From a virus, in IMG/VR virus record IMGVR_UViG_3300031974_000916, positions 1 to 22,796 of that record: a DNA stretch of 22,796 bases; one strand, written 5' to 3'. Below are positions 2,732 to 13,835 of the stretch, in pieces (position 1 is the first letter of the stretch; each line of letters begins with the position of its first letter). Below the pieces are notes generated by a model that was given only the letters and a program-made list of their open reading frames with translations, had not been told where the DNA came from and made no database searches. Both the position numbers and the translations under genes were made by a program.

Positions 2732-5059
2732 TTAAGACAACAGATACTTCATACGCTTTACTGCCGAGACATCTAAGTCTCCAAGTTCAGGCACGGATGG
2801 AAGTTCTGCGGTCGGGTTGTTGTTGTTGATTTGCTCCATTCTGAACTCGGTCAGGAGATCAACAGAAAAAGTTTTAGTGTATGCTTCACGCACTATTCGG
2901 TGTATTTGTTTAGCGTTACTTGCGTGTGTCACGAAACAGTCATGTATAGTAGCCAAGTCAAAGTCAACCTCATTAGCTACTTGGTGTACGATACATGCGT
3001 CTAAGCTGTGGATAAAGTTAGCAGTCACTGCGTTGCCGTGGTGCTTGGTATCTATGTCATCTGTCTCAGCGTAGGTATTTATATATACAGTGGTGTTATC
3101 AAATACAGATTCTATATTTAACTTCTTGTACTTACGAAAGCTCTGCTTAACTTTGAATCCTGTAGGTGTTGTCCAAGTGATACCGTTCTCGTAAGGTAAG
3201 CATCGAATAGTTTCACGCAGATACTTCATCACCTTGTTGACAGGTTTACACACCTCACCTGCTATCTTGTTTATTATATTACTGATCCAGATAACAGCAG
3301 TTAACATCTCACCTGTGCTACTCCACGGATGGTTAATACCTATACTCTTAAATAAATCTTGTACTAAGTTATAACTGGTAGCACCGTATGGTCTGTTCAT
3401 CACTGCCATCTTAGCGATCTTTCTTTTGATACCGTACTGCATCCAAGTCTTAGCGACAACACTACCGTCTTTCTTTAACTCATCATAGATACGATCAGCT
3501 ACATACTGGTACATGTCATTCGCTTTATCCTCTTCCACCAGGTTGCACATCCGTCCGGTATTCTTATCCCGTAACAACAAACTAAGTATCTGCATACCAT
3601 TATTGGAACAGTCTTGTCTTACAGGCAGGTAGCTAACATATCCGTATCCCTCATCTGTAAACTTCTTAAACTCTAAACAGAATCTCAGGAAACAGAACGG
3701 ATCACTAGCTTCAGTCCACCAATCAGTACCGTGTGGATCATTCGCTGCTTCCAATATAAACTTCTGTCGTTTACCTACCCACTCAAGTCTCTCCTCTCGT
3801 GTGCCCTTTACTCCCCACATGTTCGCACCGTGAATAAATACAGCTTCCAAGTCCTCTTCATCCACCACCTGCTGACCGTTCTTGAAGTCCAATAAACTCT
3901 TAGCTAAATCAGAACCCTGTGGATGTAAGTAGTAAGGAATAGCGTACACTCTGCCCCTGTAATCACAACGATACGGAAAGTAAATCTTGTCCCACTTGTT
4001 GTACATCTTAGCTAAGTGTAAGATACGACAAGCTTGGAATCTTTTGGAGCTGTTACTAGCGTTGGTAGTCTTTATATCTTTTTGCTTTAACTTCCACACA
4101 CTTAGCTCCTGCTCATCACCACCTGTATAGTACGGTTGCTCAGGTATCTCTCCAAATTGTGGAATGTTTCCTACTACCCTTTTGTTTTCCCAACACTTTA
4201 GAGTAATATCTAACATGTCCGTATTAACCTGCCACTCCACCTGTTGTAATCGGTTAACAGCACTCATTACATGCTCGTAGTTATTACCTTCAAACCATTC
4301 AACAGGTTTACCAGTAAAAAACTTCTGTGCAGGTAACTGTTCAATATTATATCCACCACCTATCAATCCGTGCCAGTCAACGGGTCGGTCAGGTAATGCC
4401 ATCTTAAACACTTGACCCGCTTCCTTCCACTTATCAAAGCGATGTATCCAATCCTTAAACTGTCTAGTAGGTAACACAAAGCGTTCAGGTATTTTTAAAT
4501 TACTTTTACCTTCACGGAATCCTATCTCAAACAGACCAGTACAACATCTGATCTCCTCAAGCAACCAGCACCCTAAACTAACTTTGTTCCTGTGATCCCA
4601 TAGTTCAAACCGTGTGTCTTCATACTTATAGAACTGCTTGATCTTACTTTGTTTACTGCGGTCATTTATAGCTAACAAGTCTTGCTTGTTGTGGCTCAGA
4701 TTCTCCAGTGCATACTTCCACCTAGCTTCATTCTCAAATGCCTTACCGATACGATGCCCCATCTTGCCAACAGCTAAGTGGTTGTCTAAGTTGTTAAGGA
4801 ATGTACGCAAAGCGATAACAGCTATCTCATACGGACACATGTCCATAACAAAGGTCAGGTAAAGTGGTGTTGTGTATCCTGGACTGGTAAACTGGTCGAT
4901 GATGTGCTTTACTCTGTCCCCTAACTTCGGACACATACTCTGTAACATACGCTTACACGATGCTGTGTGACTACTCTCTCCGTCCTGTCTGAGCTTTGCT
5001 TGGCGGTTACGATACGCTACCCGTCCCCACTCACGCATCCGTGCTACATGGCTACTCAT
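2732..5059 (-). CDS. T7-like single-subunit DNA-directed RNA polymerase
   Basis: 775 aa, about 110 shorter than T7 gp1 (883). All polymerase motifs are present: motif A VRQDCSNNGMQ with catalytic aspartate D483 (T7 D537), motif B KIAKMAVMNRPYG with K550 and Y558 (T7 K631 and Y639, the same 8-residue spacing), and motif C TIHDCF with D707 (T7 D812). The A-C distance is 224 residues against 275 in T7, so the fingers or palm insertions are trimmed. NAVTANFIHSLDA and the segment before it correspond to the T7 specificity-loop region. It should transcribe the middle and late genes from its own promoters. It starts with ATG 8 nt inside the preceding gene, suggesting coupled translation, and is expected to be made from early host-polymerase transcripts. 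Confidence 0.98.
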   Translation of the reverse strand: MSSHVARMREWGRVAYRNRQAKLRQDGESSHTASCKRMLQSMCPKLGDRVKHIIDQFTSPGYTTPLYLTFVMDMCPYEIAVIALRTFLNNLDNHLAVGKMGHRIGKAFENEARWKYALENLSHNKQDLLAINDRSKQSKIKQFYKYEDTRFELWDHRNKVSLGCWLLEEIRCCTGLFEIGFREGKSNLKIPERFVLPTRQFKDWIHRFDKWKEAGQVFKMALPDRPVDWHGLIGGGYNIEQLPAQKFFTGKPVEWFEGNNYEHVMSAVNRLQQVEWQVNTDMLDITLKCWENKRVVGNIPQFGEIPEQPYYTGGDEQELSVWKLKQKDIKTTNASNSSKRFQACRILHLAKMYNKWDKIYFPYRCDYRGRVYAIPYYLHPQGSDLAKSLLDFKNGQQVVDEEDLEAVFIHGANMWGVKGTREERLEWVGKRQKFILEAANDPHGTDWWTEASDPFCFLRFCLEFKKFTDEGYGYVSYLPVRQDCSNNGMQILSLLLRDKNTGRMCNLVEEDKANDMYQYVADRIYDELKKDGSVVAKTWMQYGIKRKIAKMAVMNRPYGATSYNLVQDLFKSIGINHPWSSTGEMLTAVIWISNIINKIAGEVCKPVNKVMKYLRETIRCLPYENGITWTTPTGFKVKQSFRKYKKLNIESVFDNTTVYINTYAETDDIDTKHHGNAVTANFIHSLDACIVHQVANEVDFDLATIHDCFVTHASNAKQIHRIVREAYTKTFSVDLLTEFRMEQINNNNPTAELPSVPELGDLDVSAVKRMKYLLS

Positions 5060-5297
5060 AATTGTTTTCGTTCTTAAAGTTGAACCATCCAGTATTCATC
5101 ACCCGCTGTTTCGAGGTACGATAAGCTATCAAGTTCCCGTTCTCGTCACGGACATATTCTCCGTTAGCGTCCCGCTTAAATCCGGTTATTTGATTGTTGT
5201 TCCAAAAGTACCGAAAACCATCATTCAAAGCCTTGTGGTCAATCGGTACAACAGGTACATCATTCCACTCGATCTCGTAATAATCTTCGGTGTTCAT
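5052..5297 (-). CDS. Unknown 81-aa early protein upstream of RNA polymerase
   Basis: Starts with ATG 5297, preceded closely by GAGAG, and ends in a stop that overlaps the RNA polymerase start by 8 nt. The protein is rich in Tyr, Trp and Asn, with a repeat-like pair of short turns (DANGEYVRDENGNLIAYR). No membrane segment, Cys cluster or known motif is visible. The tight overlap makes it part of the RNA polymerase operon. A regulator or partner of the polymerase would be guesswork. I do not recognise a family. Confidence 0.75.
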   Translation of the reverse strand: MNTEDYYEIEWNDVPVVPIDHKALNDGFRYFWNNNQITGFKRDANGEYVRDENGNLIAYRTSKQRVMNTGWFNFKNENNYE

Positions 5298-5314
5298 CTC
5301 TCAGTATATCCGCT

Positions 5315-5530
5315 TCAGCCTCCCAAAAGATGCCCGTGTGTGTCTCTTGGGTCTTCTTCGAGGTCGTGGTACACAAGGTAGTCTTCAATTTCCTGCTCGG
5401 TTTTAAGGACTGAAAGATTCTCAAGATGTTCTTTGATTCGTTCTTCTTCTTCGATGCGTTCTTTCTCTGATTCATAATAGTCTTGTTCGTAAGGTTCGGT
5501 TAACCAGTTGTCGTAGTTGTATCCTCTCAT
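5315..5530 (-). CDS. Unknown acidic coiled-coil early protein, 71 aa
   Basis: The chosen start is ATG 5530, which shares ATGA with the stop of the HNH endonuclease. A longer frame starting at GTG 5581 would overlap the HNH gene by 55 nt and is less likely. The protein is highly charged: residues 15-45 form a Glu/Lys/Arg-rich helix (YYESEKERIEEEERIKEHL) that looks like a coiled coil, followed by a second acidic helix (EQEIEDYLVYHDLEEDP). No enzyme motif is visible. It is followed 17 nt later by the next early gene. The family is unknown to me. Confidence 0.7.
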   Translation of the reverse strand: MRGYNYDNWLTEPYEQDYYESEKERIEEEERIKEHLENLSVLKTEQEIEDYLVYHDLEEDPRDTHGHLLGG

Positions 5531-6300
5531 AAGGTTATGGTTTTGTAGTTGTTCATTAAGATTGTCAACAAAACATACCACGGAATCTTATCACCCTTTG
5601 CACAATTATCTTTCTCCCATAACGGCTGAAGATTCTGCCAGTTAAAACATACCTTTTGATGACTCGGTTTGGTTAGGTCAAAGAATGCACACGGAAGAAT
5701 GTGATCGATATGCCACTTCCCATGATTATCCCAAGACATACCCTCAGTGAACTGAGCTTCAAGGTGATTACAACACTGTTCAATAGTACATCCTAATAGC
5801 TTGACTGTGGCTTCGCTTTTAAAACCAGGTCTGATTCTACGCATGTGATCTCTTAATCTTCTGCAAACCACTTTCTCAGGTATCGTGAGAGCCTTTTCGT
5901 ACACTTTTTTCCTAGCTGCTAAACCCTTCGGGCTGTTTTGGTACTTTTTTTGTGTTTTTTTATATTTTGAACTACGATGGTATCTAGCTGACGTTACCTT
6001 TCCTTTAAGGGATTGCTTGTATTTCTTTCGACTAGCTTTGTGAGCATCAGTATGTTTCGTCTTTTGATAATAATCAGATTTTTTTTTCTTAGCTTGATCG
6101 GATTGGAAGTATATATTTTTCTGTTCTGTAAAAGCTTTAAAACTATCTTCGTCAGCCCAATGCTCACCATCTGGATATAATTTTTTAAAAAACAAACCTT
6201 TAATAATAGGATGTTTATCTCCAGTTTTAAAAGTACCTCTAGGTTCTTCTGTTTGTACTTCTTTTTGTTTAATCCTTCCTCTTTTATCTCTCGGTATCAT
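5527..6300 (-). CDS. HNH endonuclease, probably free-standing homing type
   Basis: 257 aa. The C-terminal HNH (beta-beta-alpha-metal) domain is plain: WHIDHILPCAFFDL with H197 and H200, then FNWQNLQPLW and EKDNCAKGDKIPW supplying the conserved Asn residues. The middle (about residues 75-135) is a Lys/Arg/Tyr-rich string of repeated KYK-type segments, likely the DNA-binding arm. Such enzymes nick or cut specific DNA; in phages they are often selfish genes spread by homing, and some act in packaging. The location away from terminase favours homing. The gene looks richer in A/T than its neighbours (several T runs of 6-9 on the plus strand at 5940-6190), consistent with acquisition. It starts with ATG 6300, overlapping the preceding stop by one base, with GAGGAGGA just upstream. 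Confidence 0.9.
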   Translation of the reverse strand: MIPRDKRGRIKQKEVQTEEPRGTFKTGDKHPIIKGLFFKKLYPDGEHWADEDSFKAFTEQKNIYFQSDQAKKKKSDYYQKTKHTDAHKASRKKYKQSLKGKVTSARYHRSSKYKKTQKKYQNSPKGLAARKKVYEKALTIPEKVVCRRLRDHMRRIRPGFKSEATVKLLGCTIEQCCNHLEAQFTEGMSWDNHGKWHIDHILPCAFFDLTKPSHQKVCFNWQNLQPLWEKDNCAKGDKIPWYVLLTILMNNYKTITL

Positions 6301-6464
6301 TATTCCTCCTCCAGTTTCTCAAGGTGTTCTTTATAGAGTTGCAAGGACAGGTAAAGCTCAAGCCATCTTCCGTCCAACTCTCGGTTCATATCGTTGTTAA
6401 ATAGATGGAACATCAGCTCCTCTATCTGATCGATTGGATCAAGTAATATCTCTCGGTTAGTCAT
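6300..6464 (-). CDS. Unknown 54-aa early protein
   Basis: ATG 6464, MTNREILLDPIDQIEELMF, ending LEKLEEE. It is mostly helical and acidic by composition. The start lies inside the end of the upstream 23-aa gene (8-nt overlap), and the stop overlaps the next start as TAATG. The purine run that encodes the final Glu residues also serves as the Shine-Dalgarno sequence (GAGGAGGA) of the HNH gene. One copy of the repeated TACCTGTCC 9-mer lies inside it (6345-6353 on the plus strand), read as Y-L-S. No recognisable family. Confidence 0.7.
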   Translation of the reverse strand: MTNREILLDPIDQIEELMFHLFNNDMNRELDGRWLELYLSLQLYKEHLEKLEEE

Positions 6465-6528
6465 TGTATAAGATACATGTAAGGATAAGTCCGCAGATCA
6501 GCAGACAAAATAACATTGTTAAGGTCAT
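6457..6528 (-). CDS. Tiny single-pass membrane peptide, 23 aa
   Basis: ATG 6528 has the best Shine-Dalgarno sequence of the early region (GAAGGAG, 5 nt spacer). The peptide is MTLTMLFCLLICGLILTCIL plus three residues, essentially one hydrophobic helix with three Cys. An in-frame ATG at 6549 would add seven residues (MITEGEY) and would overlap the upstream stop as TAATG, but it has a poor ribosome site. The stop overlaps the following gene by 8 nt. Small hydrophobic early phage peptides can act on the host membrane or on membrane-bound defence proteins; which applies here is unknown. Confidence 0.6.
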   Translation of the reverse strand: MTLTMLFCLLICGLILTCILYND

Positions 6529-6548
6529 ATATTCTCCTTCGGTTATCA

Positions 6549-6752
6549 TTATTCTTGGACAGGTACAATTCTACCGCTTTGGTCAAAGTCATAACCTAGC
6601 TCGTCCATTATCCAAGCCATAGCAGTCTTTACATCGTCCACATCATGGCGTTTCTCTTCTGCATATGGTTCAAAGTGTTCTTCCCATTCGTGTATAACAT
6701 CCCATACAACTTCAAGGGATTCATCTACTCTAAAATTTGTCGGTTTATTCAT
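6549..6752 (-). CDS. Unknown acidic early protein, 67 aa
   Basis: ATG 6752, overlapping the upstream stop by one base (TAATG). The protein has about 19 Asp/Glu against 6 Lys/Arg, with helices around EVVWDVIHEWEEHFEPYAEE and DVKTAMAWIMDEL. The strong negative charge and early position are like those of small phage inhibitors of host enzymes, but no specific family is visible. Its last codons (VPVQE) carry one copy of the TACCTGTCC repeat, 8 nt before the stop. Confidence 0.72.
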   Translation of the reverse strand: MNKPTNFRVDESLEVVWDVIHEWEEHFEPYAEEKRHDVDDVKTAMAWIMDELGYDFDQSGRIVPVQE

Positions 6753-7009
6753 TATTCGGACAGGTAAGAGAATTGATAGTCAAAGGATAACCCGTTGCAA
6801 GAGTTTTCATTATACCAACGGATCAAAGTATTGATGTGCTTTATACCCCACATCTCTTCATCGTACTGGTCAACAAAAGGATCAACCTCTTTCAACCAGT
6901 CGTGTACTTTATCGATTAAACCCTCACAAGTATGACCTTTGAAAACCATTATGTCGGTTTCTCCGTCTCTGTGAAAGTCTAGTATAGTTATTTTGTTTTC
7001 TTCATTCAT
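6752..7009 (-). CDS. Unknown acidic early protein, 85 aa
   Basis: ATG 7009, with the upstream gene ending 8 nt inside it. The sequence has a beta-like start (NKITILDFHRDGETDIMVFKG), then an aromatic, acidic helical part (DWLKEVDPFVDQYDEEMWGI). A copy of the TACCTGTCC repeat lies 6 nt before the stop, read as Y-L-S. It sits in a run of similarly sized early genes joined by 1-8 nt overlaps. Function unknown. Confidence 0.72.
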   Translation of the reverse strand: MNEENKITILDFHRDGETDIMVFKGHTCEGLIDKVHDWLKEVDPFVDQYDEEMWGIKHINTLIRWYNENSCNGLSFDYQFSYLSE

Positions 7010-7172
7010 TAGTAGTATTGGTTCTATTTAGTAGCTCTTGCTGTAGCTCCACGAGCCTATCCCTAACAGTTAAGTTGTCAGGTAGCTTTTCACGGACACG
7101 TAAGTAGTGATCGATAAGCGTTTGCAAGCTCGGTTCATCAAGCGTGGATAAGTCGGATGGATCAGTTGTCAT
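7002..7172 (-). CDS. Unknown early protein, 56 aa
   Basis: The chosen start is ATG 7172 (MTTDPSDLSTLDEPSLQTL), overlapping the previous gene by 11 nt. A TTG at 7208 would add 12 residues and has AGGAAAG at a workable distance, so the start is uncertain. The protein is a probable helical hairpin (LQTLIDHYLRVREKL and VRDRLVELQQELLN), resembling small helical adaptor or inhibitor proteins. It ends NTTNE, and its last bases repeat the AATACTACTA element found at the starts of two other genes. No known family. Confidence 0.65.
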   Translation of the reverse strand: MTTDPSDLSTLDEPSLQTLIDHYLRVREKLPDNLTVRDRLVELQQELLNRTNTTNE

Positions 7173-7356
7173 TTCCTGTTGCGTTAATAAATGCTTCCCT
7201 AAGTTCAAGGATGTCTTTCCTCATGCTCTCAACAGTGTAGTCACCATTGGCTAAGTCCATAAAGGTTTCAACAATTCCAGAGTAAGACCAGTCAGGATCA
7301 CCCAACCACTCTATGATTTGTTCTTCGGTAAATTTAGTAGGTATAGTAGTATTCAT
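7162..7356 (-). CDS. Unknown early protein, 64 aa
   Basis: ATG 7356 overlaps the upstream stop by one base. The protein starts MNTTIPTKFTEEQIIEWLGD and looks like a small all-helical fold with a Trp-rich loop (GDPDWSYSGIVETFMDL). Composition is acidic. The 21 bases over its start (7342-7362) are identical to those at 146-166, over the start of the gene after primase-helicase; both proteins therefore begin MNTTI. No family recognised. Confidence 0.72.
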   Translation of the reverse strand: MNTTIPTKFTEEQIIEWLGDPDWSYSGIVETFMDLANGDYTVESMRKDILELREAFINATGNDN

Positions 7357-7362
7357 TATTTA
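7342..7362 (-). repeat. Start-codon repeat, copy 2
   Basis: Identical to the 21 bases at 146-166 and likewise placed over a start codon. Its AATACTACTA part occurs a third time at 7010-7019, just before the start of the 85-aa early gene. Confidence 0.7.
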
Positions 7363-7634
7363 TTAGTATTAGGTTCGGTTAAACAATCTGGACAGGTACT
7401 TTGACTCTCCATTTTAGGGTTTGTCAATCCGCAAGTGTCACAAGCAGGTAAAGATCGGTTCCGATAGTATTGTTTGAGTCTCTGTTTTATTTGCTCGTAC
7501 ATGTGCTCCATTGAATGAGCCTCGCCATGGACAGGTAAAGATTTACACTTCCAAACAATAACAGGTAAAGCTCGGTTAAAGCTATCGATACGATAAAAGA
7601 AAGCTAGGTTTTGATAGATAAATGATACGCTCAT
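7356..7634 (-). CDS. Small zinc-ribbon protein, about 92 aa
   Basis: The start ATG 7634 shares ATGA with the stop of the preceding membrane-protein gene; a TTG at 7667 is less likely. An internal ATG at about residue 43, with GAGG 8 nt upstream, could yield a 50-aa form. The C-terminus has a clear four-Cys zinc ribbon (CDTC at 65-68, CPDC at 81-84). The middle is a basic helix (EQIKQRLKQYYRNR). Together these suggest nucleic-acid or protein binding, for example a transcription or host-takeover factor. Three short (R/K)(S/A)LP segments in the same frame come from repeats of the TTTACCTG element. Function is inferred only from the ribbon. Confidence 0.65.
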   Translation of the reverse strand: MSVSFIYQNLAFFYRIDSFNRALPVIVWKCKSLPVHGEAHSMEHMYEQIKQRLKQYYRNRSLPACDTCGLTNPKMESQSTCPDCLTEPNTNK

Positions 7635-7777
7635 GACAGACAGATACTTGCCAGTATAGCCACCCAAAATGCCCCGACAATAAGCGGAACTATAACAGAT
7701 GATAACATCTCACAAGATTTGCTTGGTTTTAGCCAATTAGGATAACACAAGGATGAAGTGGTTTTGATTCTTTTCAT
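7631..7777 (-). CDS. Small membrane protein, 48 aa
   Basis: ATG 7777 lies 4 nt after the stop of the preceding gene. The protein has a basic, polar N-terminal half (MKRIKTTSSLCYPNWLKPSK) and one hydrophobic segment at about residues 25-47 (SSVIVPLIVGAFWVAILASI), so it is likely a single-pass inner-membrane protein with the N-terminus inside. The stop overlaps the next start as ATGA. No ribosome site stands out, so translation is probably coupled. A role in lysis or membrane takeover is possible but not shown. Confidence 0.62.
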   Translation of the reverse strand: MKRIKTTSSLCYPNWLKPSKSCEMLSSVIVPLIVGAFWVAILASICLS

Positions 7778-9698: not shown

Positions 9699-11390
9699 CT
9701 ACGACCAGAGGTAAGCAGAGACCTTATTACTTCTTTTATGAAAGCTATCAGTAAACTTTGTTAGTTCTTCTTCCAACAGTTCTTGTTGTCTATCAATCAT
9801 AGATTGGTTAACATCAGCAGCCATCTGCTGCACCCAATAACCAACAGCTATTGATAAAGCATCAAGACGGTCATCATGTACCAAGCTACCTCTATCTCTT
9901 GTTATCCTAGATAACTGATACATAAGCATGTACCTGGTTTGTTGTTCAATAGGATAGCTAAGAGCAGACCTGTAGTCATCCGTGATGACGGAAGGGTCTA
10001 CTATAAGTCTATGAGAGTTTAACACAGGTTCTAAAGTATCTACTATACGAAGCTCCTTCTGTTTGTTATGTCTGACTTCTTCTATTGTTACAGGATAGGT
10101 TGTTCTAAACAGAGGCTTAATCAGCTCCATAAACATACCGTCACCAAAGTTAGACTCTATCACCACTTTGTTAACTTTGTTATCCTTAGCGATAGCTACG
10201 AGTTGTTGAAGGGTCTTAGTATCGTAACCACCTCTTATCCCACCAGCATCCGGTACAAACAACTGACCGTTTAACATCTTCACTACAGCATACCCTGTTT
10301 CATCCTTACCACGACCAGACGGGTCAATAGATAGGACAGAGCCTGTGTACGGTATCATATCTCCAACAGTGTTAGCAGGTCTTCTGTATCGATCACCAGC
10401 CAGTCCTACATTAGGTAACTCTCTATCACAGTTATCAGGGTCGCTTGACCACACGATCTTTTCAGGAGCTACATCAACATCTACATCCATTACAACAAGA
10501 TCATTAATCTTTAGTGGGTATCTATCAGCGTCCGACAGCTTAGGATTAAGCATGAACTGTAGAGCGTACCCAGTGCGACCGTACGACATCTTTCTTTCTT
10601 CTAGGTCTAAGTCTGTAAACCGTAGGGGTTCTGTAGAAGTACCGATAGTCTCAGGTGTTATGTTATCCGCTATAAGGGGTGCTAGATCGCCTCCGTAGTT
10701 ATTTATAGCCTCAGTATCGTCTGGATACTCTGAAGACCATATACGGCTCTTGTAGCCCCTCTCTCGCAGCTTGTTGTATATACTGTCTTCACACTGTGGA
10801 GTACCAAGAAAGATGATCCTTGAGGAGTCCAAAGGTTTAATGATAGCGTCAAACTCTTTTACTTGTTCATCCAGCTTATCTCTCATTCCTTGTGTAGCAC
10901 TGTTGTTAGCTACCTCCACATCATCTGCTACAATTATATCAGCACGAGAACCTGTTAGCTGGGACGATATACCAAGGGACTTAACAGAGGGAGCGTGAGA
11001 CGCTGGAGCAGGTCCTACATCAAAAGCTATCTTACTGAATCGTTGGTTCTCTGATGGCTTTAATCCTTGTAAAATGGGAATCTCCTGAATGATTCGCAAG
11101 GTAAATGTAGAGAAGTCATCCGATCTATTCTTACTAGCTGATACAACAAGTATGTTCTTAGATGGGTCCAGCAGCAGCTGATGTACTACAAAAGCACTTG
11201 TTATCCAGGATTTGCCCACTCCACGGAACGCCATAATAACAGACCGCTTTGGACCGTGTTGCAGGTACTCAGCGATGTCGTATTGTAGCTCGGTGGGGTC
11301 AGGAAGATTTAGGTGCTTCCAAACCAGGTACAGGAAGTTTCTAAAGTCCCGTAGCTTGGGCGGTATCTCTTGGTGTTTCTTCTTCTTCAA
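9699..11390 (-). CDS. Terminase large subunit (T7 gp19-like)
   Basis: 563 aa; T7 gp19 is 586. The ATPase has Walker A AFRGVGKS at residues 54-61 (T7 SFRGIGKS) and Walker B IIVADD at 152-157, with the LGTPQ coupling motif later. The nuclease has the SIDPSGRGKDE aspartate (D356), VVIESNFGDG, and LVHDDRLDAL (D506, D507, D510). It powers DNA into the prohead and cuts the concatemer at genome ends. The start is TTG 11390; a stop lies in frame a few codons upstream and the next Met is residue 53, inside Walker A, so no better start exists. The first 50 nt overlap the small subunit gene. It is the last gene before the terminus region, as in T7. Confidence 0.97.
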   Translation of the reverse strand: MKKKKHQEIPPKLRDFRNFLYLVWKHLNLPDPTELQYDIAEYLQHGPKRSVIMAFRGVGKSWITSAFVVHQLLLDPSKNILVVSASKNRSDDFSTFTLRIIQEIPILQGLKPSENQRFSKIAFDVGPAPASHAPSVKSLGISSQLTGSRADIIVADDVEVANNSATQGMRDKLDEQVKEFDAIIKPLDSSRIIFLGTPQCEDSIYNKLRERGYKSRIWSSEYPDDTEAINNYGGDLAPLIADNITPETIGTSTEPLRFTDLDLEERKMSYGRTGYALQFMLNPKLSDADRYPLKINDLVVMDVDVDVAPEKIVWSSDPDNCDRELPNVGLAGDRYRRPANTVGDMIPYTGSVLSIDPSGRGKDETGYAVVKMLNGQLFVPDAGGIRGGYDTKTLQQLVAIAKDNKVNKVVIESNFGDGMFMELIKPLFRTTYPVTIEEVRHNKQKELRIVDTLEPVLNSHRLIVDPSVITDDYRSALSYPIEQQTRYMLMYQLSRITRDRGSLVHDDRLDALSIAVGYWVQQMAADVNQSMIDRQQELLEEELTKFTDSFHKRSNKVSAYLWS

Positions 11391-13137: not shown

Positions 13138-13371
13138 TTACGGAGCAGAGATAGCATCAAGAAAGTCTTGGTAATCACCAACTTCCTCTTCGTGAGCGTC
13201 TAAGAAATAAGGCAAAGAGTTCCAAGCTGTACTTCCGTCTCCTATCTTAATTTTATTACGGGTACTATCTAATTCAATTCCTAGCTCTCCCTCTAAAAGT
13301 ACAGGGTTCTCTGTACTCCACTCACTAGCAGTTCCTCTTCTTAGTTGTATACGCTTTGTAAAACTAGGCAT
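13138..13371 (-). CDS. Small tail/adhesin base protein (Mtd N-terminal-like), 77 aa
   Basis: The start is ATG 13371 because a strong GGAGGAG lies 6 nt upstream; TTG 13389 is rejected. The sequence (QLRRGTASEWSTENPVLLEGE, GELGIELDSTRNKIKIGDGS, TAWNSLPY) is the short beta domain found at the N-terminus of phage adhesins, including the family of the Bordetella phage Mtd protein, and as small free proteins in marine phages. It probably forms a collar or base for receptor binding. The start overlaps the end of the preceding gene by 8 nt. Confidence 0.8.
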   Translation of the reverse strand: MPSFTKRIQLRRGTASEWSTENPVLLEGELGIELDSTRNKIKIGDGSTAWNSLPYFLDAHEEEVGDYQDFLDAISAP

Positions 13372-13591
13372 CTGGTGCTCCTCCGTCAAATATGTCAGTG
13401 TCGTCTACTACTGGTCCTCCTCCATCAATCGTAACAAAGAATGGATCACTCTCTAAAGATGTTACCTTTGATTCCAACTGTTCCGCTTCCTCTTTATTTT
13501 GTTGTGCTTGTGCAGCGGAAGTAGCAGCTATTGTTCGTTGTTGGAACGCAAGCGGAGATATACGGGCAACTGGTCGTGGTCTTCTAGGCAT
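13364..13591 (-). CDS. Small coiled-coil virion-associated protein, 75 aa
   Basis: ATG 13591, one base after the upstream stop. It has a Pro/Arg-rich N-terminus (MPRRPRPVARISPLAF), an Ala/Gln/Glu coiled coil at about residues 18-48, and an acidic Gly-rich C-terminus (DGGGPVVDDTDIFDGG) that also encodes the ribosome site of the next gene. It sits between the basic small proteins and the adhesin-like genes, so a tail-tip or fibre-linked role is likely. No named family. Confidence 0.72.
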   Translation of the reverse strand: MPRRPRPVARISPLAFQQRTIAATSAAQAQQNKEEAEQLESKVTSLESDPFFVTIDGGGPVVDDTDIFDGGAPDA

Positions 13592-13592
13592 C

Positions 13593-13835
13593 TCAGCACT
13601 TCCATCTACGCAACGCTAAAGCTTTTCTTGTAGGTCTACCTTTACTGTCTTTCATCGGTCCTTTGACTCCAGACATCCTCGCACAGAAGGAACGCTTTCT
13701 AGGACCGCCACCAGGTTGAGGAGCTTTAAGGTTGGAGCCAGTAGCACGATTGTACTTCCGTCTACCTTTAGCAGTGAGTCCTCCTTTACGGGACTTCTCA
13801 CCTCTACCGAGGGATAGTGAAACAGATTTAGCCAC
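13593..13835 (-). CDS. Small basic protein, DUF6321-like, 80 aa
   Basis: The start is GTG 13835; there is no other Met before residue 54 and the family-like sequence begins immediately. It has about 24 Lys/Arg and 2 acidic residues. The conserved-looking core is SLGRGEKSRKGGLTAKGRRKYN, then GSNLKAP, FCARMSGVKGPMKD and KGRPTRKALALRRW. I recall this as a domain of unknown function common in marine phage and environmental sequences (DUF6321, from memory). The charge and two Cys suggest nucleic-acid binding or internal packing, but no function is known to me. It overlaps the preceding gene by 8 nt. Confidence 0.82.
   Translation of the reverse strand: MAKSVSLSLGRGEKSRKGGLTAKGRRKYNRATGSNLKAPQPGGGPRKRSFCARMSGVKGPMKDSKGRPTRKALALRRWKC

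Follow-up and report, generated by a model that had tools for sequence, protein, structure and literature searches.

Two short nucleotide words, the hexamer AACCGA and a longer one, TTACCTG(T/A)CC, crowd the sense strand of one zone around the start of the T7-like RNA polymerase gene in the virus fragment IMGVR_UViG_3300031974_000916 and in its relatives. The window analysed here is the whole of this complete IMG/VR fragment (22,796 nucleotides, 22.8 kb), which has its main genes on the minus strand. With the polymerase gene (2732..5059, minus strand; phrog_414, E 1.1e-168) as anchor, the word-rich zone of the window lies at 4000..7660 on the minus strand and takes in small early genes and about the first 350 polymerase codons; its edges are approximate and are based on sense-strand density in 40 loci and six long contigs. 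Position profiles of these loci and contigs put the high sense-strand density of both words between about -2.6 kb and about +1.0-1.3 kb relative to the polymerase start; outside this stretch, and on the opposite strand, the words are near zero. The first-pass annotation had pointed to five copies of the 9-mer TACCTGTCC in 1.2 kb of small early genes, read in different frames; the copies, their places and their frames are as it described, within a phenomenon that is larger than was claimed.

Enrichment and conservation among relatives

A polymerase search identified 60 loci, of which 54 (window included) had at least 1 kb of upstream sequence and 40 were left after the removal of redundant ones. 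A wider search yielded 36 loci with at least 700 nt, 29 of them non-redundant. Genes were picked mechanically as the longest ATG-initiated open reading frames (ORFs), and the polymerase start used as reference is the start of the tblastn match, which lies at most six codons inside the gene.

Expected word counts were obtained by shuffling synonymous codons in a set of 69 non-redundant loci. In the genes upstream of the polymerase, TACCTG[AT]CC was observed 158 times against an expectation of 7.4 (sd 2.5), a 21-fold excess, and AACCGA 428 times against 109 (sd 10), a 4-fold excess. The excess of the longer word continues into the 5' part of the polymerase gene, with 60 copies against 1.9 expected in codons 1-350, compared with 5 against 0.7 in codons 400-770 (48 loci). 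Over 168 kb of zone sequence, AACCGA occurs 548 times on the sense strand and 3 times on the antisense strand, and TACCTG 374 and 26 times. AACCGA had been missed in the first-pass annotation and emerged from unbiased k-mer counts as the second word; without any prior choice, the two words are the top two enriched zone hexamers in the six long contigs, which share ancestry, so that their counts are not independent. The mean density is 5.0 sites per kb and the spacing is Poisson-like (CV 1.03).

The exact 9-mer TACCTGTCC is present within 3 kb upstream of the polymerase gene in 38 of the 40 non-redundant loci (window included), so it is not absent from close relatives, and it is concentrated in the zone rather than equally common elsewhere. 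Over all 60 loci, not de-duplicated, there are only four downstream copies on the sense strand and eight antisense copies, the latter all in two recurring contexts inside sense ORFs. The 29 further non-redundant loci, with 69-74% polymerase identity, contain AACCGA without exception and TACCTG[AT]CC in 26 cases. Among 72 loci selected by their terminase, 14 had a polymerase match (down to 61% identity), and all 14 carry both words. A 14-mer scan of viral contigs found 92 stretches, from which 76 loci (L066-L141) were examined after already known loci had been left out; 23 of these had the family polymerase or were word-rich, and 17 of the 23 had the polymerase. The two others in which one strand has the 9-mer at least three times, L122 and L125 (contig also L259), both carry the family terminase. 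In the set of 69 loci, AACCGA is found in every one and a TACCTG-type word in 64, and the placement of the sites varies between loci.

The words do not appear to be a general feature of marine T7-like phages, a possibility that we rejected when neither word was enriched in the five pelagiphages and two roseophages sampled. The most asymmetric words of those phages are, by appearance, hairpin-associated or clustered near the genome end. No account of such a word zone was found in the open-licence literature.

Outside the zone the words are depleted on the sense strand. In the six long contigs, AACCGA occurs there 6 times on the sense strand against 31 expected (reverse complement, 15 against 22), and TACCTG 20 times against 38 (reverse complement, 110 against 76). 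The one-base extensions behave similarly, with TAACCGA at 0 against 9.6 and TTACCTG at 4 against 13.3 on the sense strand, compared with 5 against 6.2 for TCGGTTA and 35 against 26.5 for CAGGTAA.

Selection at the nucleotide level and copies in the window

The words are selected as nucleotides, whatever the reading frame, and on the sense strand only. Both TACCTGTCC and AACCGA occur in all three frames, and the number of unrelated sequence contexts is 32 for TACCTGTCC, 25 for TACCTGACC and 167 for AACCGA. In the small gene encoding the peptide LYLSLQ, TAC CTG TCC is retained in 49 of 54 sequences (not de-duplicated) while the adjoining Leu and Gln codons vary. The polymerase gene contains an internal control: Asn-Arg near codon 17 is written AAC CGA in 83 of 100 rows of the alignment, the window being an exception, whereas at column 559, where 92 rows have Asn-Arg, AAC CGA is used in just 5 of 100 (rows shorter than 380 aa dropped; not de-duplicated). 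Protein conservation had been set aside earlier on the ground of differing frames, and the frozen codons beside freely varying synonymous ones bear this out.

The two words differ in how strictly they are kept. No single-base variant of AACCGA exceeds three times its expectation, and the variants that G-U pairing would tolerate stand at 1.5, 1.1 and 0.7 (A to G) and 1.2 and 1.0 (C to T) times expectation. The longer word accepts T or A at the seventh place (TACCTGWCC) with some change elsewhere, and TTACCTG(T/A)CC is often extended to ...TCCGTGA. TACCTGTCC is a coding word, with 90% of its 155 copies inside genes, as is the case for 80% of AACCGA copies; some word copies lie in short intergenic gaps. 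TACCTGACC is instead a spacer word, with 57% of 47 copies lying within 30 nt before a start codon, compared with 11% of random zone positions, 8% of TACCTGTCC copies and 17% of AACCGA copies.

In the window, the five exact copies of TACCTGTCC are all on the minus (coding) strand, with none on the plus strand. The first (6345..6353) is read as TAC CTG TCC (YLS, within LYLSLQ) in the 54-aa ORF 6300..6464, where the codons are frozen in relatives. The second (6557..6565) is read in the frame VPVQ (IVPVQ) in ORF 6549..6752 and the third (6758..6766) in the frame YLS (SYLSE-stop) in ORF 6752..7009, with the next start just downstream. These two do lie near stop codons as had been noted, but at 5 and 3 nt before them, the earlier figure of 6-8 nt being counted to the end of the stop codon. 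The remaining copies, at 7390..7398 (STCPDC) and 7529..7537 (SLPV, in SLPVHG), share the 103-aa ORF 7356..7667. The five copies thus belong to four genes. That the zone also runs into the polymerase gene had escaped the first-pass annotation.

Near copies are also present, all on the minus strand. TACGTGTCC lies inside the zone at 7094-7102, within a variant, TACGTGTCCGTGA (7090..7102), in a gene where relatives carry either TACCTGTCC or, shifted by one codon, the TACGTGTCCGTGA form. TACCTGACC occurs twice in the polymerase gene, at 4853..4861 (frame LYLTF) and 4387..4395 (frame ALPDRP). The core TTACCTG is found at 4330..4336 in the polymerase gene (frame QLPAQ), at 7445..7451, and at 7562..7568, where it is preceded by AACCGA at 7572-7577. 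AACCGA itself has 14 copies on the minus strand and 3 on the plus strand. Twelve of the 14 fall between 5397 and 7577 (low coordinates 5397, 5496, 5664, 6381, 6453, 6539, 6740, 6954, 7130, 7375, 7455 and 7572), and one lies at 4250 in the polymerase gene.

Taken by itself, the window is modest evidence for the TACCTGTCC cluster, because codon shuffling yields, in 44 of 300 windows, some 9-mer with at least five copies in a span of 1,250 nt, and the window alone would not prove the case; it is the relatives that settle it. When one mismatch is allowed, the window has 14 matches to TACCTGTCC (both strands) against 4.1 in shuffles, and none of 100 shuffles reaches 14. The k-mer count against a shuffled-codon null that the first-pass annotation had suggested therefore gives a marginal result for the window and an enrichment that stands in the 69 loci.

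Possible functions of the words

We propose, with a probability of roughly 0.4, that the two words tag the early transcription unit as a transcription-oriented cis-signal that is read in early RNA, or in the elongation complex, by a specific factor. The early unit would carry many copies of AACCGA and TTACCTG(T/A)CC, and a factor, probably phage-coded, would recognise them on the early RNA or on the elongation complex that is making it. Such a factor could mark early transcripts as a class and control their fate, most likely by inactivating them or turning them over once transcription passes to the phage polymerase; genes of the middle and late classes would have lost the words and so be spared. 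A reader, its action and the sign of its effect (shut-off or protection) are what we infer here. An RNA or early-elongation reader is proposed because the signal is wanted in one unit, is scarce elsewhere, and is blind to frame and exact place. The Poisson-like spacing and the differing placement from locus to locus would be expected if density outweighs position. A protein-binding or RNA-processing site, among the options listed in the first-pass annotation, thus stays the best one. Because the main genes share one direction, these genomes do not by themselves distinguish a signal in RNA from one in oriented DNA. A more specific version of the proposal, which we regard as possible but rather unlikely, is a two-word code that sorts transcripts. 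A dedicated reader would act on any RNA containing AACCGA or UUACCUGWCC, with the words dense in one early zone, including the start of the polymerase gene, and kept out of genes expressed later.

The closest RNA precedent is RegB, a product of T4-like phages, which have no polymerase of their own. The sites of T4 RegB (GGAG) are in RNA sense and lie mainly in early mRNAs, also inside coding sequence, and middle and late transcripts mostly escape, as described in the account cited (PMC3014915). The words reported here are likewise on the RNA-sense strand, concentrated in early transcripts and found inside coding sequence. They differ in sequence, in being two, in being mostly intragenic and in lying outside Shine-Dalgarno sequences.

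Several observations weigh against a signal of this kind. Gene families at about -4.5 to -2.6 kb have almost no copies of either word, so that an early tag fails to cover the whole early region, its first genes being left out. A search of nine records for the RegB family (PF10715) does not count among them: it had no match, but these records are fragmentary and the control matched nothing either. An RNA reader finds no support in predicted RNA structure. Accessibility at real sites, compared with that of the same words moved within the zone, was 0.636 against 0.612 (p 0.08) in one comparison and 0.473 against 0.476 in the other, and a preference for unpaired AACCGA, seen only with a control matched for G+C, was small and non-significant once the word was moved randomly within the zone. 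AACCGA is in the lowest 1% of comparable hexamers (those without common palindromes) outside the zone, but 18 of 1968 are lower still and GACCGA is equally low, and for this reason part of its depletion may be general. Finally, the zone has few copies of the complement TCGGTT as well (2 against 11.8 expected), something that an RNA reader does not directly predict and that fits oriented DNA sites or the avoidance of self-pairing.

The low count of TCGGTT leads to the best placed of the alternatives, though we think it unlikely: the words could be oriented sites on the DNA where a phage protein, once bound, halts or slows the elongating host RNA polymerase and so silences the early unit. Stoperators of the cluster A mycobacteriophages (L5, TipsytheTRex) follow the nearest DNA logic, with more than 20 asymmetric 13-bp sites whose orientation follows transcription and which lose function on reversal (PMC9283540). 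The words are also asymmetric, numerous and in a single orientation relative to transcription, with some copies in short intergenic gaps. Stoperators as described there are genome-wide, lie in short intergenic gaps and belong to temperate phages, whereas the present words fill one zone and most copies are intragenic. No integrase was found in nine records, and thus there is no sign of lysogeny, a statement that covers integrase only, as no repressor search was made. Two unlike words would in addition need two readers or a two-headed one, and their spacing is patternless.

Next in order, and also unlikely, is a positive transcript signal, such as antitermination, protection of the RNA, or translation without a Shine-Dalgarno sequence, with genes elsewhere avoiding the words lest the factor be titrated. 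The early genes start with ATGA, the next base being A in 84%, and lack an upstream Shine-Dalgarno signal; this, the single orientation of the words and the position of TACCTGACC just before start codons would suit such a role. On the other hand, TACCTGTCC shows no preference for starts and AACCGA hardly any, and the three well-conserved genes just upstream of the polymerase have almost no TACCTG word (0/38, 0/40 and 1/38). The start-associated sequences (SAS) of cluster K mycobacteriophages provide a comparison. They are asymmetric 13-bp elements in 11-19 copies, nearly all in one orientation, confined to the non-structural half and placed before unrelated small genes, with function unknown (PMC3203893). 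In that account SAS lie 3-7 bp before starts and contain AGGAG, which our words do not. A position a few nucleotides before starts is approached by TACCTGACC only, TACCTGTCC and AACCGA being intragenic. The missing Shine-Dalgarno signals hint at a host that makes little use of them, as is the case for the Bacteroidota.

Chi-like sites, or other oriented DNA-processing sites that direct a host exonuclease or recombination close to the end by which the genome enters the cell, are still less probable. The words are short, oriented, limited to one zone and G-rich on the other strand (GGWCAGGTAA, TCGGTT), and there is a precedent for zoning in the lambdoid phages, some of which have Chi over-represented and concentrated in one region while others avoid it (PMC3784561). 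The density reported in that source for Rec- phages is about 0.2 per kb, compared with 5 per kb here, and Chi offers no parallel for two words, frozen codons and depletion of one strand elsewhere. The zone moreover begins just about 2 kb from the presumed left end. TACCTGWCC was not over-represented in 13 genomes and TTACCTGWCC not strongly so in 198 genomes of one phylum (that of G014), although this is a weak test, made with the longer word in sampled genomes that may not include the host.

Short homology for the shuffling of small early genes between phages, which had been offered as an option, now seems very improbable. The early genes are mosaic among relatives and shuffling would require the common orientation, but either word lies within about 14 nt of only 3 of 12 insertion junctions and on both sides of none. 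The junctions are at start codons, and the words are no less frequent over the conserved 5' portion of the polymerase gene and are depleted elsewhere. Binding sites for an antisense RNA or a guide RNA, whether from the phage or from its host, are just as improbable. The words are short, strand-specific and spread over many unrelated mRNAs, but the G-U-pairing variants of AACCGA are not favoured, no complementary site common to the loci was found within 8 kb on either side, and the words are not specially unpaired in predicted RNA. Chance, codon bias or protein conservation can be dismissed in view of the 21-fold and 4-fold excesses, the use of all frames and the contrast between the two Asn-Arg positions of the polymerase, even though a five-copy cluster is not rare in codon-shuffled windows.

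Two further candidates derive from T7 itself. The words are close to absent from the sense strand outside the zone in six contigs, where the middle and late regions lie, which makes it unlikely that they are promoters for the phage polymerase. The class II terminator word of T7 RNA polymerase, ATCTGTT (PMC9624206), matches ACCTGTC at five of seven bases, a weak likeness that could be due to chance, and it was rejected as the zone signal since ATCTGTT is not concentrated in the zone. The 36 non-palindromic 6-bp EcoP15I sites of T7 all have the same orientation (PMC3874151); what is described there is orientation and not a zone-limited excess, in contrast to the 4- to 21-fold excess in one zone found here.

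Whatever the two words are for, some constraint that is not protein keeps synonymous codons fixed at numerous positions along about 3.6 kb, and it does so in 69 or more distinct loci of this unstudied family of aquatic phages. Overlaid signals can thus constrain phage genes at the codon level. In T7-like phages the switch from early to late expression is usually ascribed to the change of polymerase, and a reader of early RNA or of its elongation complex, if found, would be a further way to part the two. Because the hexamer is strict and is scarce outside the zone, the proposal can be tested directly by synonymous recoding.

Neighbouring genes and other compositional signals

The polymerase of the window is only about 29% identical to those of the nearest named isolates. 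The terminase large subunit is encoded at 9699-11390, and the region between terminase and polymerase (5.05-9.16 kb) is packed with small genes; its position in the gene order suggests that it is the early region of a T7-like genome. Other genes of the window encode a Gp2.5-like single-stranded DNA-binding protein, an endonuclease, a primase/helicase, a tail fibre and an internal virion protein. Ten early-region proteins had no Pfam matches, and a tRNA search of 11 loci found none. The series of early genes contains an inserted HNH/endonuclease VII-like gene (phrog_1035; 5527-6300, minus strand), whose boundary coincides with a start codon. The phrog_1035 cluster is present in 13 of the 40 loci, with AACCGA in nine of the 13 members and the TACCTG word in two. 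Between the tail fibre and the terminase, on the minus strand, are genes for a small protein with Mtd_N (the N-terminal domain of the major tropism determinant) at 13138-13389 and a small DUF6321 protein at 13593-13835.

As to the host, the best match in a terminase search of genome contigs had 63% identity, and in none of the 80 genome loci found through the terminase did a single strand carry the 9-mer at least three times. ACGT is nearly absent: codon shuffling predicts 60 copies in the coding sequence of the window, which has 1, and 383 in the zone of the 69 loci, which has 54. GGCC is scarce as well (2 against 14.6 in the window, 14 against 94 in the zone). This scarcity looks like the avoidance of host restriction sites and may help in finding the host. 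In the relatives, the sense strand of the late region (about -9.0 to -4.2 kb relative to the polymerase start) has more CTGCTG than codon shuffling predicts (63 against 32, a count inflated by homologous genes), and the early zone has hardly any AGCAGC (1 against 14.6 expected, homologous genes again affecting such counts).

A sequence that contains the T7 class II terminator word, TATCTGTT, is found at the very end of the polymerase gene in four of the six long contigs (at about 2740 on the minus strand in the window, and in three of the five others), a recurrence that could be explained by a conserved protein end. In the pelagiphages, CTAGACG is repeated on the sense strand of the early region (L264, 685-1439; L266, 2339-2991; L268, 2043), and several of its copies resemble one arm of terminator-like intergenic hairpins.

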